Assembly (NCBI GenBank): GCA_021825445.1
Contig: JAKAHA010000003.1
Location: 37,969-101,968, forward strand
Direction of reading: 5' to 3'
Length of the DNA: 64,000 bases
From: a bacterium
GTDB taxonomy: Bacteria > Patescibacteriota > Microgenomatia > UBA1406 > GWC2-37-13
Below the pieces are notes generated by a model that saw only the letters and a list, made by a program, of their open reading frames with translations, did no database searches and was not told the origin of the DNA. Shown here piece by piece: positions 14,516-19,930 of this stretch. Each line of letters starts with the position of its first letter. Position 1 is the first letter of the stretch. A program made the translations under genes and the position numbers.

Positions 14516-14543
14516 TTGACTTTCAAAAAAAGCATGTTATAAT
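14516..14543 (+). promoter_or_regulatory. sigma70-type promoter with extended -10 for the arg leader transcript
   Basis: TTGACT (14516-14521), 16-nt spacer, TG-T-TATAAT (-10 at 14538-14543). Confidence 0.8.
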
Positions 14544-14549
14544 TTCTTT

Positions 14550-14624
14550 ATGTTAAAAGTACTATTCGGAACCAATTCGTCTAGCAGGCGACTTTACGGG
14601 GAGGGTAGTATTTTTATGGTCTAA
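14550..14624 (+). CDS. candidate leader peptide MLKVLFGTNSSSRRLYGEGSIFMV (tandem Arg codons)
   Basis: ATG at predicted +1; AGG CGA at 14586-14591; UAA at 14622-14624; upstream of argH terminator. Confidence 0.65.
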   Translation: MLKVLFGTNSSSRRLYGEGSIFMV

Positions 14625-14651
14625 AGAGTAAAAACTAATTACCAATCCCCG
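14597..14651 (+). promoter_or_regulatory. candidate antiterminator hairpin of the arg attenuator
   Basis: CGGGGA(14597-14602)/TCCCCG(14646-14651) plus GGTAGT(14604-14609)/ATTACC(14638-14643); overlaps terminator 5' arm. Confidence 0.65.
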
Positions 14652-14674
14652 CCCAAGCAAAGGCGGGTTTTTTT
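14648..14674 (+). terminator. intrinsic terminator immediately before argH (attenuator)
   Basis: CCCGCC-caagcaaa-GGCGGG-TTTTTTT. Confidence 0.8.
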
Positions 14675-14704
14675 ATGGCCCAAATTATAAATTTAAAAAA
14701 TAAT

Positions 14705-15976
14705 ATGAAAAAACTTTGGACAAAAGACGGAAATAAAACAGACAAACTTGTTGACAAATATTGTTTTAATGAAGGAGCTTTATTTGATAACGACTTGATC
14801 GTCTATGATCTCTATGGATCAATCGCTCATGCAAAGATGCTAAAAAAAATCGGAATACTTAACAAAAATGAATTTAATAAATTAAAAAAAATATTGATTG
14901 AAATCATTAGTTTGTACAAAAATGGGAATTTTGCAATTACGCAAGAAGATGAAGACGTTCATACTAAAATTGAAAATTATTTGACTGAAAAACTTGGTGG
15001 CTTAGGTCAAAAAATACATACTGGACGAAGTCGAAATGACCAAATTTTAGTTGACTTACGTCTTTATAGTAAAGAACAATTATCAAACACAAACGTATTA
15101 ATTAATCAATTAATCGATACATTTTTGGAATTTGCAAAAAAATATGAATTCGTGCCGATGCCAGGGTACACCCATATGCAAAAAGCAATGCCATCATCAG
15201 TCGGTATGTGGGCTGGTAGTTTTGCCGAACAATTAATTGACCAACTAGAAATTCTAAAATCAGTTTATAAACTTAATGACCAATCCCCTCTTGGAAGTGG
15301 TGCAGCTTATGGAGTTTCTCTTCCAATCGATCGAGAATTAACAGCAAAACTTTTAGATTTTTCCAAAGTTCAAAATAACTCTCTGTACTGCCAAATTTCC
15401 CGACCAACCATTCAATTGTCAATTGTCCAAGTATTAACACAAATAATGTTATGTGCTTCCCGATTTGCCCAAGATTTATTACTTTTCACAACAAGTGAAT
15501 TTAATTTTTTTGAAGTTGACGAATCCATTTGTACTGGATCAAGCATTATGCCTCAGAAAAAAAATCTTGATCTCATGGAATATGTCCGGGCAAAAACTCA
15601 CACTGTTATAGCTAATCAGCAACAAATATCAACAATTACAGCCGGCTTGCCATCTGGATATAATGCTGACTTTGGTCAAACAAAAAAACCTTTAATAGAA
15701 TCATTTAAAATAACTTCTCAAACAATTGAAGTATTAATACTTACAATTAATTCAATTAAACCAAAAGTTGAAGACTTAATCAAAAGCTGTTCACCTGAAA
15801 TTTACGCAACTCATTTTGCCTATGAGTTGGTTAAAAATGGTATGCCATTTCGAAAAGCTTATTTGGAAATTAAAAAAAACTTAAAAAAAATTAAGTCCCC
15901 CAATCCGATTGCTTTTTTGAAGCAGTCTAATCACTCCGGTGGAACCAATAATTTAAAACTCAGGCGAGCCAAGTAA
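14705..15976 (+). CDS. argH: argininosuccinate lyase
   Basis: HTGRSRNDQ, GSSIMPQKKN; MKKLWTKDGN is the likely N-terminus (track ORF starts 14675 on the terminator edge). Confidence 0.92.
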   Translation: MKKLWTKDGNKTDKLVDKYCFNEGALFDNDLIVYDLYGSIAHAKMLKKIGILNKNEFNKLKKILIEIISLYKNGNFAITQEDEDVHTKIENYLTEKLGGLGQKIHTGRSRNDQILVDLRLYSKEQLSNTNVLINQLIDTFLEFAKKYEFVPMPGYTHMQKAMPSSVGMWAGSFAEQLIDQLEILKSVYKLNDQSPLGSGAAYGVSLPIDRELTAKLLDFSKVQNNSLYCQISRPTIQLSIVQVLTQIMLCASRFAQDLLLFTTSEFNFFEVDESICTGSSIMPQKKNLDLMEYVRAKTHTVIANQQQISTITAGLPSGYNADFGQTKKPLIESFKITSQTIEVLILTINSIKPKVEDLIKSCSPEIYATHFAYELVKNGMPFRKAYLEIKKNLKKIKSPNPIAFLKQSNHSGGTNNLKLRRAK

Positions 15977-16013: not shown

Positions 16014-17258
16014 ATGAAAAACAAAACAAAGTATATTAAAGTTGCTTCTTACGAGGCGCAAACGGGAAAGGCAAAAAAAGTTTTATTACTTTATTCAGGA
16101 GGTCTTGATACCTCCGTCATGCTCAAATGGATTCAAGATCAGTATAAGAGCGAGGTTATCACGCTGACTCTTGATATTGGTCAGCAAAAAGATGATTTGG
16201 AGGCAGTTAAAAAAAAGGCTTTAAAATTTGGAGCTGTCAAAGCTATTGTCCTTGATGCAAAAGCCGAATTTGCAGAACAATTCCTGGTAAAAGGAATTAA
16301 GGCTAATGCTTCCTATCAGGGCGACTATCATTTGTCTACCCCGATGGGCCGGGCAGTGCTTGCCAAAAAAGCAGTTGAGATTGCAAAACTTGAAAATGCT
16401 GACGCAATCGCTCATGGTTGTACTGGAAAAGGTAATGACCAGGTCCGCATTGACGGATATATTTTAACTTTTGATCCATCAATAAAAATCATTGCCCCTG
16501 TCCGTGAATGGGCGATGGACCGAAATGAGGAAATAAAATATGCACAAGCTTATGGAATTCCAATTCCTGCCAGTATCGATTTTCCATACAGCGTTGATGA
16601 CAATATGTGGGGAATGACCTGGGAAGGTGGAGAAATAGAAGAGCCAAATCTAGTTGCTCCAATCGAAAATTTCTTAACAACATACACTTTGGCAAAAAAC
16701 GCACCAGATAAAGAAGAATTTATCAAAATATTTTTTGATAAAGGAATTCCAACAGCAATTAATGGTGAAAAAATGCCACTTTCCAATTTAATTGAAAAAT
16801 TAAATAAAATTGCAGGAAATCATGGAGTTGGTGTCGTACACATGTTTGAAGACCGCTTGGTTGGACTCAAAAATGGTGGAATCTATGAAATGCCTGCTGC
16901 CCATGTCTTAATCAAAGCCCACAAGCATTTGGAAAAATATGTTTCAACCAGAATGTTAAATGAGCTAAAAGAAACAATGGATACAAAGTGGGCGTATCTT
17001 TGCTACGCGGCTATGTGGTATGACCCTGTGATGAAAGCAATTAACGCTTTCAACGATAAAGTTAATGAAAAAGTGACCGGTGAAGTGACGGTAAAACTTT
17101 ATAAAGGGAGCGCTAAACCTGTTGCAATGAAGTCAAAATATGGACTAGACCACACTTCGTTTAATAACAACGAGGGTTATGGTTTTAACGTCAATGCCAG
17201 TGCCGGGTTTACCGAAATTTATACATTACAAATGAAGTTAGCAAATCAAAAAAAATGA
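16014..17258 (+). CDS. argG: argininosuccinate synthase
   Basis: LLLYSGGLDTSVMLKW, AHGCTGKGNDQVR. Confidence 0.95.
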   Translation: MKNKTKYIKVASYEAQTGKAKKVLLLYSGGLDTSVMLKWIQDQYKSEVITLTLDIGQQKDDLEAVKKKALKFGAVKAIVLDAKAEFAEQFLVKGIKANASYQGDYHLSTPMGRAVLAKKAVEIAKLENADAIAHGCTGKGNDQVRIDGYILTFDPSIKIIAPVREWAMDRNEEIKYAQAYGIPIPASIDFPYSVDDNMWGMTWEGGEIEEPNLVAPIENFLTTYTLAKNAPDKEEFIKIFFDKGIPTAINGEKMPLSNLIEKLNKIAGNHGVGVVHMFEDRLVGLKNGGIYEMPAAHVLIKAHKHLEKYVSTRMLNELKETMDTKWAYLCYAAMWYDPVMKAINAFNDKVNEKVTGEVTVKLYKGSAKPVAMKSKYGLDHTSFNNNEGYGFNVNASAGFTEIYTLQMKLANQKK

Positions 17259-18196
17259 AAAAAGATTTTCTTTCCATTACCGATCTTTCAAAAAAAGAAA
17301 TCATTTATTTGGTTGATCTTGCTATAAATTTAAAAGAAGAACTTATAAGTAATGGTGAAAATATTCCGTATTTAAAAAACAAAACCTTGACGATGATTTT
17401 TGAAAAACCATCACTTCGAACTCGCGTCTCTTTTGAAGTTGCCATGACTCAGCTGGGCGGACACGCTATAAACCTCAGCCCAGCTGATATTGGTATTGGA
17501 AAGCGAGAATCGATAGCAGATGTTTCTAAAGTTATATCGTCCATGACTGATATTATTATGGCGCGTGTTTTTAAGCACTCTTTAATTGAGGAATTAGCAA
17601 TACACTCATCTGTCCCTGTGATAAACGGTCTTTCAGATTTAGAACATCCTTGTCAGATTTTGGCAGATTTATTGACTATTTATGAAATTAAGAAAAATTT
17701 TGATGGATTAAAAATTGCCTACCTAGGTGATAGCGAAAATAATGTAACCCATTCGCTGGCTTTAGCATCAGCTATTTTGGGAATAAATTTTATAACCGCC
17801 TCACCTAGTGGGTATTGGACGAAAAAAAATATTTCTCAAACAGCAAAAAAATTTGCCAAAAAAAATAATTGTCAAATTATTGAAACCGATGACCCAATAA
17901 AAGCCGTCAAAAATGCCGATATTATTTATACAGATACTTGGATAAGTATGGGGGATGAAAGCGAAAAAGAAAAACGACTAAAAATTTTTCCAAAATACCA
18001 AGTAACAAGTAAGATTATGAGCTTTGCTAAAAAAGACGCTATTTTTATGCATGATATGCCAGCCTACAGAGGTCAAGAAGTGACCGCAGAAGTCATTGAT
18101 GGAAAACAATCGGTTATTTTTCAACAAGCCGAAAACCGACTCCACGCCCAAAAAGCATTATTGGTTTACCTGTTAAATAATTCCAAACTGAGCTAA
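17255..18196 (+). CDS. argF: ornithine carbamoyltransferase family protein
   Basis: FEKPSLRTRVSFE, DLEHPCQILAD, DTWISMGDE; HCLP motif replaced by HDMP. Confidence 0.88.
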   Translation: MKKDFLSITDLSKKEIIYLVDLAINLKEELISNGENIPYLKNKTLTMIFEKPSLRTRVSFEVAMTQLGGHAINLSPADIGIGKRESIADVSKVISSMTDIIMARVFKHSLIEELAIHSSVPVINGLSDLEHPCQILADLLTIYEIKKNFDGLKIAYLGDSENNVTHSLALASAILGINFITASPSGYWTKKNISQTAKKFAKKNNCQIIETDDPIKAVKNADIIYTDTWISMGDESEKEKRLKIFPKYQVTSKIMSFAKKDAIFMHDMPAYRGQEVTAEVIDGKQSVIFQQAENRLHAQKALLVYLLNNSKLS

Positions 18197-18217: not shown

Positions 18218-19930
18218 ATGATTAAAGAAGAAATATTGAAAAATTTGAAGATAGTTTTGAAAAAAATTGGTGCTACTGACGTGGAACCAACTTTGGAAAA
18301 ACCAGCTAATTCTGATTTTGGCGACTATTCGACCTCACTACCTCTCAAACTTACAAAACAATTAAAGAAAAACCCAATGACTATTGCCGAGGAAATTGTA
18401 AAAAATTTTCCAAAAAATGATCTGATTGAAAAAATAGACGTGATTAAACCAGGCTTTATCAACTTTTGGATCTCGAATGTACAGTTAATTAATCAACTGT
18501 ACATTACTGTTAAGAATGACCTTAATTATCCTGAATATCATCTTGGAAAAAATAAAAAATTGATGGTTGAGTTTGCCCACCCAAATACTCATAAACTTTT
18601 TCATATTGGTCATCTCCGAAATATTTCAACAGGTGAAGCTCTCGTTCGAATATTTGAGGCGGTTGGAAATAAAGTTATCAGAGGAAACTACGAGGGTGAC
18701 GTTGGATTACATATTGCCAAATGTCTATACGGAATTCAGAATTCAAAATTCATAATTCAAAATTTAAAAACATTACAAGAACGAATTGAGTTTATCGGAA
18801 AAATGTACAGTGCCGGAACAAAAGCATATGAAGACGACCCAAAAGCGAAAGAAGAAATCTTAAGAATTAATAAGATGATTTACGATCGGGATCCTGAAAT
18901 TATGGATTTATGGACAGAAACCAGAAAGTGGAGTCTTGATTATTTTGATCTTAATTACAAAAGATTTTATAGTTATTTTGATAGGCTTTATTTTGAAAGT
19001 GAAATACATAAACGAGGACTGGAAATATCAAAAGAAATCTTAAAAAAAGGAATTCTTGAAGAAAGCCAAGGTGCCGTAGTCTTTAACGGTAAAAAATATG
19101 GATTGGACACCCGAGTATTTATTAATTCTTTAGGATACCCAACGTATGAAGGAAAAGAGTTAGCTCTCGCCGAAAAAGAATTCTCTGATTTTGGAGAATT
19201 GGATAAAATTATTCATACCGTAACTCCTGAGCAAACAAGTTTTTTTAAAGTCACTTTTAAAGTTGAAGAACTGATTGACGAAAAAAAATATAAGGGCAAA
19301 CAACTTCATCTTGCCTACGAATGGGTGAAATTAAAAGCCGGCAAAATGTCTTCCCGTGAAGGGAATATAATTGAGGCAAATTGGCTGATTGATGAAGTTA
19401 AGAAAAAAATTGCTGAAAAATTTAAATGTAATGAAGAAACAACAGAAATTCTTGCCGTTGCCTCAGTCAAATATTCTTTCTTAAAAAATGGCACTCAAAC
19501 AATTATTCATTTTGATATTGATGAATCAATAGCAGTTGATGGAAACTCTGCGCCATATTTAATTTACACTTATGTACGTTGCCAATCAGTTCTTAATAAA
19601 AGTGATTTTAACAATGAAACCCGACTTCGCCTTTCAGGATTCGACGGACAAGCAATTAAACAATTGAATAATGACGAATCAAACGTCTTACGTCTCATCA
19701 ATCAATTCCCCGAGATAGTTCAGCAATCAGCCATCCAACTGTCCCCTAATTTAATCGCAAATTACCTTTATGATCTTGCCCAAAAATATAATTATTTTTA
19801 TCAAAAAAATAAAATACTGGAATCGGATGAAAAGATAAAACAGTTTAGATTGATGTTGACAGCTGCGACTGGAAAAGTGATTAAAGAAGGATTATATTTA
19901 CTAGGAATAAAAACCGTAGACAAAATGTAA
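18218..19930 (+). CDS. argS: arginyl-tRNA synthetase
   Basis: FAHPNTHKLFHIGHLRN, KMSSREGN. Confidence 0.94.
   Translation: MIKEEILKNLKIVLKKIGATDVEPTLEKPANSDFGDYSTSLPLKLTKQLKKNPMTIAEEIVKNFPKNDLIEKIDVIKPGFINFWISNVQLINQLYITVKNDLNYPEYHLGKNKKLMVEFAHPNTHKLFHIGHLRNISTGEALVRIFEAVGNKVIRGNYEGDVGLHIAKCLYGIQNSKFIIQNLKTLQERIEFIGKMYSAGTKAYEDDPKAKEEILRINKMIYDRDPEIMDLWTETRKWSLDYFDLNYKRFYSYFDRLYFESEIHKRGLEISKEILKKGILEESQGAVVFNGKKYGLDTRVFINSLGYPTYEGKELALAEKEFSDFGELDKIIHTVTPEQTSFFKVTFKVEELIDEKKYKGKQLHLAYEWVKLKAGKMSSREGNIIEANWLIDEVKKKIAEKFKCNEETTEILAVASVKYSFLKNGTQTIIHFDIDESIAVDGNSAPYLIYTYVRCQSVLNKSDFNNETRLRLSGFDGQAIKQLNNDESNVLRLINQFPEIVQQSAIQLSPNLIANYLYDLAQKYNYFYQKNKILESDEKIKQFRLMLTAATGKVIKEGLYLLGIKTVDKM

Follow-up and report, generated by a model that had tools for sequence, protein, structure and literature searches.

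The window analysed here, a stretch of 64,000 nucleotides from an uncultured ultrasmall bacterium of the candidate phyla radiation (CPR), contains an arginine operon read on the forward strand. Its four genes encode argininosuccinate lyase (argH, 14705-15976; PF00206, and TIGR00838 above cut-off), argininosuccinate synthase (argG, 16014-17258; PF00764, PF20979), ornithine carbamoyltransferase (argF, 17255-18196; PF00185, PF02729) and arginyl-tRNA synthetase (argS, 18218-19930; PF00750, PF03485, PF05746). Pfam confirms all four assignments of a preliminary description of this locus, in which the region upstream of argH was proposed to be an attenuator. For argH, the putative first regulated gene, the more probable start codon is that at 14705 (MKKLW..., as in relatives) rather than the in-frame ATG at 14675, a correction to the preliminary description.

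The leader of the operon is compact. Its sigma-70-type promoter with an extended -10 element, TTGACT-N16-(TG)TATAAT (14516-14543, forward strand), matches 11 of 12 consensus positions and is the top-scoring site of a 3-kb scan; TTGACT occupies 14516-14521, the 16-nt spacer carries the extended TG, and TATAAT occupies 14538-14543. A near-perfect TATAAT also precedes the ATG in most relatives. Six nucleotides past the -10 box (14543), at or within a few nucleotides of the predicted +1, an ATG at 14550 opens a leader ORF of 24 codons (MLKVLFGTNSSSRRLYGEGSIFMV; 14550-14624, forward strand, stop codon at 14622), which has no Shine-Dalgarno motif and whose frame is kept in relatives. It contains tandem Arg codons, AGG-CGA (14586-14591), the proposed stall site. 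Further downstream lies an intrinsic terminator, CCCGCC-N8-GGCGGG-T7 (14648-14674), with six G-C pairs in a stem at 14648-14667 and a T7 tract reaching 14674; it is the sole terminator-like site in the 3 kb scanned, and a terminator also follows in relatives. The observed architecture is not due to chance: a promoter, an ATG placed 3-10 nt behind the -10 box, a short ORF and a terminator coincide at a single place in the window, whereas 40 Markov-shuffled windows contain no such combination. An Rfam scan of the window returned only a tRNA, with no T-box at the gathering score, and a GGTGG-type T-box motif is absent from 14550-14674.

Three mutually exclusive pairings can be drawn in this leader. 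Region 1 (14554-14567), at the 5' end of the ORF, is predicted to pair with 14603-14616 in an anti-antiterminator hairpin (1:2). Region 2 (14597-14617), the switching strand, follows the Arg codons and has as partner either region 1 or region 3 (GTAAAAACTAATTACCAATCCCCG, 14628-14651). Two of the three switch strands therefore lie within the leader ORF, flanking the stall codons. The antiterminator (2:3) joins CGGGGA (14597-14602) to TCCCCG (14646-14651) and GGTAGT (14604-14609) to ATTACC (14638-14643), and it shares 14648-14651, an overlap of 4 nt, with the 5' arm of the terminator (3:4). The minimum free energy state of the full leader consists of a 14-bp 1:2 hairpin (14554-14567 with 14603-14616) followed by the terminator (-34.5 kcal/mol, z -2.0). 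When the 3' arm of the terminator is withheld, RNAfold pairs region 2 with 14628-14651, which is precisely the antiterminator hairpin that the preliminary description had proposed to overlap the terminator 5' arm. Its coordinates for promoter, ATG, ORF, Arg codons, terminator and antiterminator are all correct, but it had missed region 1, as well as the tandem-terminator versions, the T-box alternatives and the non-arginine leaders described below.

A DNA search of the genus recovered close relatives, ten of which were used to build a covariance model. The nearest named relatives, by ArgH similarity, are Candidatus Roizmanbacteria. The model detected elements in 27 of the family's 73 genomes (one match, L058, being rejected) and few elsewhere in the class. 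We tabulated 34 elements, homologous or analogous, mostly from one Microgenomatia family and including divergent relatives located before argH in other Microgenomatia. In every one of the 34 the leader ORF carries two adjacent Arg codons, and these codons vary synonymously (the first is AGG in 28, AGA in three and CGA in three; the second is AGA in 14, CGA in 12, AGG in four and CGT in four). Leaders range from 21 to 42 codons, differing by whole codons, and the distance from the Arg pair (RR) to the stop is 9-12 codons in all elements except one. The terminator was located automatically in 33 of the 34 and by eye in the last (L042). We looked among the relatives for loci with the terminator kept and the ORF, the Arg codons or the antiterminator pairing lost; the outcome did not speak against attenuation. 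Leaving aside chance hits such as L058, the elements keep ORF, RR, both hairpins and terminator, the exception being a degraded case (L073, in genome G042) in which an Arg-Lys leader precedes an argH interrupted by an internal stop, and argG is shortened. Several weak matches were discarded, either because they have no leader ORF of the Arg-attenuator kind (L058, L063, L145, L166 and G007:C21) or because they lack a matching leader ORF with terminator (L261, L264, L278).

The leader ORF had been described as having no 5' UTR. This would hold approximately: the gap between -10 box and ATG, 6 nt in the window, has a median of 8 nt and is 6-11 nt in 29 of the 34 elements, but it is 14 nt in one and 23-26 nt in four, and the positions of the starts are deduced from promoters. 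None of the 34 leaders has a Shine-Dalgarno motif. We also considered that RR might be kept solely through the pairing of its codons with upstream Ser codons (UCGUCU with AGGCGA in the window), and rejected this as the whole explanation: in L044, L048 and L049, RR persists (as AGG-AGG) beside a shorter Ser stretch that, judged by eye, lacks this pairing.

Comparative analysis of a 30-sequence alignment lends support, through covariation, to both the 1:2 and the 2:3 pairing. In the 1:2 hairpin both sides have changed in 12 of 18 pairs, against a shuffled mean of 6.2 (0/500 shuffles as high), and its covariation score is 0.285 against 0.215 in shuffles (0/500), falling to 0.163 or 0.143 after a one-column shift of the partner; in the 2:3 pairing 87% of the cells are paired and the score is 0.192 against 0.142 (0/500), falling to 0.083-0.104 when slid by one, these figures being optimistic, with overstated significance, since the shuffles preserve column composition and not phylogeny. 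In both helices the pairing energy is better with the own partner than with swapped partners (p = 0.0002), the 2:3 test having been done without the C-run. A dinucleotide shuffle test of 2:3 was weak because the shuffles retain that run.

Most elements precede arginine genes. Among the 33 elements with readable downstream sequence, the first gene is argH, argG or argS in 26: 15 precede argH, ten precede argG (one after a small ORF) and one precedes argS, 455 nt away. The remaining ones precede genes that Pfam does not assign, or else genes for GNAT proteins or M20 peptidases; these last two kinds turn up repeatedly after Arg attenuators (L048, L050, L059) and may serve arginine synthesis or salvage. 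At L268 (G035:C55), an RR leader and terminator are followed by an ORF in frame with a GNAT gene and starting MFFTQHHQVRRRRRLRPM, perhaps a second arginine leader. Across the 73 family genomes, element and argH tend to occur together (p = 1e-5): both are present in 19 and both absent in 38, while eight have the element only and another eight argH only. The latter eight, in which the covariance model detected no element, include two with T-boxes (G037, G043), three with divergent RR leaders (G062, G065, G066) and G042 with its degraded leader; in G041 and G056 argH is present and no leader was found in the upstream sequence available.

Our results make it highly likely, as judged from sequence, that the element is a ribosome-mediated transcription attenuator reporting the charging of arginine tRNA. 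The preliminary description had read it as attenuation of the trp/his type, and the leader ORF, tandem Arg codons, terminator and exclusive pairings found in relatives support that reading. As predicted from the promoter, transcription would start at or within a few nucleotides of the leader ATG. If no ribosome initiated, region 1 (14554-14567) would pair with region 2 (14603-14616) and the terminator would form, leaving the operon off. A ribosome translating to the stop codon (14622) would cover region 2, with the same outcome. Scarcity of charged tRNA-Arg would stall the ribosome at AGG-CGA (14586-14591), in the loop of the 1:2 hairpin, holding its arms apart; region 2, once freed, would pair with region 3 (14628-14651) and take the base of the terminator 5' arm. 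The antiterminated RNA polymerase would then continue into argH-argG-argF-argS. Readthrough would be expected to rise when charged tRNA-Arg is scarce.

The weakest step of this model is the freeing of enough antiterminator strand by the stalled ribosome. The geometry is tight, as CGGGGA starts 11 nt past the first base of the first Arg codon. In fold predictions with the RNA free from 14598 or earlier, the antiterminator abolishes the full terminator stem; with the RNA free only from 14602 on, antiterminator and terminator coexist. Frameshift-stimulating hairpins lie 5-9 nt behind the A-site codon, and a similar spacing would allow full antiterminator pairing in the window leader. Three elements (L059, L066, L070) carry RRR and have more room between the stall codons and the antiterminator strand. 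Speaking against an attenuator, some elements precede genes without a clear arginine role (L034, L040, L042), and L073 has Arg-Lys.

In eight elements (L036, L040, L041, L042, L051, L055, L061, L062) a second terminator follows the first. In all eight, region 2 has a further pairing partner just before this second terminator (energies from -17 to -27 kcal/mol, p 0.003-0.007), whereas such pairing with a second partner is merely sporadic among single-terminator elements. Since region 2 can pair before both terminators, one switching strand appears to serve two terminators in series. The second partner often has the form GGCC-AAAAATAC-..-CCCC. Just past the terminator, many single-terminator elements keep the sequence ATGGCC(C)AAA (14675-14680 in the window), which resembles the tail of the leader ORF and may be what remains of a second antiterminator partner that has been lost.

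The arginine specificity of the leader was singled out as unusual in the preliminary description. It stands for the elements tabulated here, all of which have RR, but the class also has aromatic and Ser leaders. Broader covariance models found new sites, none of them in the training set of the model that found it. Two out-of-sample RR leaders, L265 and L269 (in G074 and G065), precede operons containing argS. Other sites have leader ORFs built in the same way but with different codons: L266 (G077:C34:9000-15600) is a tyrosine leader followed by a second leader with four Tyr codons, L267 (G203:C10) has a YYWHY leader before an aminotransferase, L279 (G172:C20) a YYFYF leader before a DAHP synthase, and L281 (G023:C48:12407-12523) a Ser-rich leader before a serB-serA fusion, whose serA half was assigned by Pfam and serB half by reading the sequence. 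A sample of 24 DAHP-synthase loci of the class gave 19 with any leader-like ORF and terminator; 18 of these 19 have an aromatic run and two have RR. Among argH loci with a leader-like ORF and terminator, RR was found in 10 of 14 and an aromatic run in none (aromatic-run contrast, p = 2e-8). The sites upstream of DAHP synthase (L283-L305) have aromatic runs such as WFYFYF or FFYFYF, with terminators, at 18 of the 24 loci. Pairing between the downstream strand and the terminator region exceeds that of shuffled sequences (p < 0.05) in 16 of the 18 aromatic leaders. Few aromatic leaders match the covariance models, and the aromatic leaders may be convergent rather than homologous to the arginine elements. 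We think it likely, though less so than the reading of the window element itself, that Microgenomatia use ribosome-mediated attenuators as a general class, compact and near-leaderless, in which the control codons follow the pathway (Arg before argGH and argS; Phe, Tyr or Trp before DAHP synthase and an aminotransferase; Ser before serB-serA), and that in some members one strand serves two terminators.

Control by tRNA charging predicts that the control codons change from pathway to pathway; neither a fixed arrest peptide nor an arginine-binding RNA does so. We consider it improbable that the element is an arrest-peptide sensor, in which the nascent leader peptide together with free arginine or ornithine would stall the ribosome, as in SpeFL or the fungal arginine attenuator peptide, with RR as a peptide signal. 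The peptide is well conserved beyond RR in the home family (MKIL..NSSSRRLFGEGSIFMA), and Salmonella speF orf34 has tandem AGG-CGG at codons 12-13, a position strikingly like that of the Arg codons in the window (PMC6386406). Yet the conserved residues besides RR fall on paired RNA, the divergent relatives retain only RR (L070, MFILLSPFCCSIRRREKRESSMAKI; L126, MSNLMKLNSRRDTGFLGGVLFSV), and the same layout occurs with aromatic or Ser codons before other pathways. Set beside sensors of the SpeFL type, the divergent members do not conserve the peptide beyond RR, and the terminator is intrinsic rather than Rho-dependent. Even less probable is a riboswitch, in which the structured RNA of the ORF would bind arginine directly and the ORF would be incidental. 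RNA structure and sequence conservation are indeed strong, but ORF and RR are preserved through whole-codon indels and synonymous changes, including AGR to CGN, the window has no Rfam match besides a tRNA, and the codon class tracks the pathway, which speaks for stalled ribosomes rather than for an RNA that binds arginine. It is equally hard to credit that the element is an unregulated structure, whether a constitutive terminator or a hairpin close to the promoter, or that it is a mobile repeat which has spread to sites before genes: GC hairpins of a similar kind followed by runs of T do occur here and there in the genomes (as weak matches) and a few elements sit before unrelated-looking genes, but the home genome has a single element, the element is associated with argH genomes (p = 1e-5), and both alternative pairings covary.

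In other Microgenomatia, clear T-boxes occupy the place of the attenuator. We found GGTGGYACC motifs and T-box matches upstream of argH, with E down to 1e-12 and all below the Rfam gathering score, so that they probably escape standard annotation. The motifs occur at L072, L077, L078, L080, L081, L082 and L086, and further ones at L087, L096, L098, L100, L104 and L122. We assume these T-boxes to be specific for arginine; arginine T-boxes are already known (PMC1262725). The presence of a T-box or a leader peptide before one gene in one class offers a natural experiment on sensor replacement, comparable to the switch between the two that is documented for hisS (PMC2965389).

To our knowledge, almost nothing is known of gene regulation in CPR bacteria. 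The literature we searched contained no ribosome-mediated attenuator of arginine synthesis and no report on the candidate phyla radiation with T-boxes or attenuating leader peptides, although absence there is no proof. The element would represent a testable, protein-free circuit through which tRNA charging is tied to the arginine supply and ArgS of CPR bacteria. It would also imply that in these bacteria transcription is coupled to translation on messages that are near-leaderless.

The window element shares with the classical trp, his, leu, thr, ilv and pheA leaders the tandem cognate codons, the 1:2, 2:3 and 3:4 hairpins, the intrinsic terminator and the biosynthetic operon. It differs from them in its arginine specificity for arginine synthesis and its CPR host, in having regions 1 and 2 both within the leader ORF, and in that this ORF is predicted to open at or close to the 5' end and has no Shine-Dalgarno motif; some relatives differ further by two terminators obeying one switching strand. 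Among arginine systems, Salmonella speF orf34 (SpeFL) comes closest; its Arg codons sense arginine, and pausing alters RNA folding (PMC6386406). It shares with the window element the tandem Arg codons and, as proposed for the latter, the refolding of RNA upon ribosome pausing but, unlike it, involves Rho, RNase G and start-site sequestration, a Shine-Dalgarno sequence, a 516-nt leader, and ornithine decarboxylase rather than arginine synthesis as target (PMC6386406). The nearest leaderless case, as far as it is outlined in PMC9031893, is that of the mycobacterial polycysteine ORFs (Canestrari et al. 2020), leaderless short ORFs with a run of Cys codons that regulate the operon behind them; they resemble the window element in their run of codons for one amino acid and, as predicted for that element, in being leaderless, whereas by the same outline they respond to cysteine and control downstream translation, and the window element has an intrinsic terminator and antiterminator. 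T-boxes (RF00230) likewise sense tRNA charging and choose between antiterminator and terminator, and occur at the same place before argH elsewhere in Microgenomatia, but they bind tRNA directly, without a leader ORF. Attenuation itself is known, and what is new is its specificity for arginine synthesis, the CPR host, the near-leaderless ORF and the tandem terminators sharing one strand.
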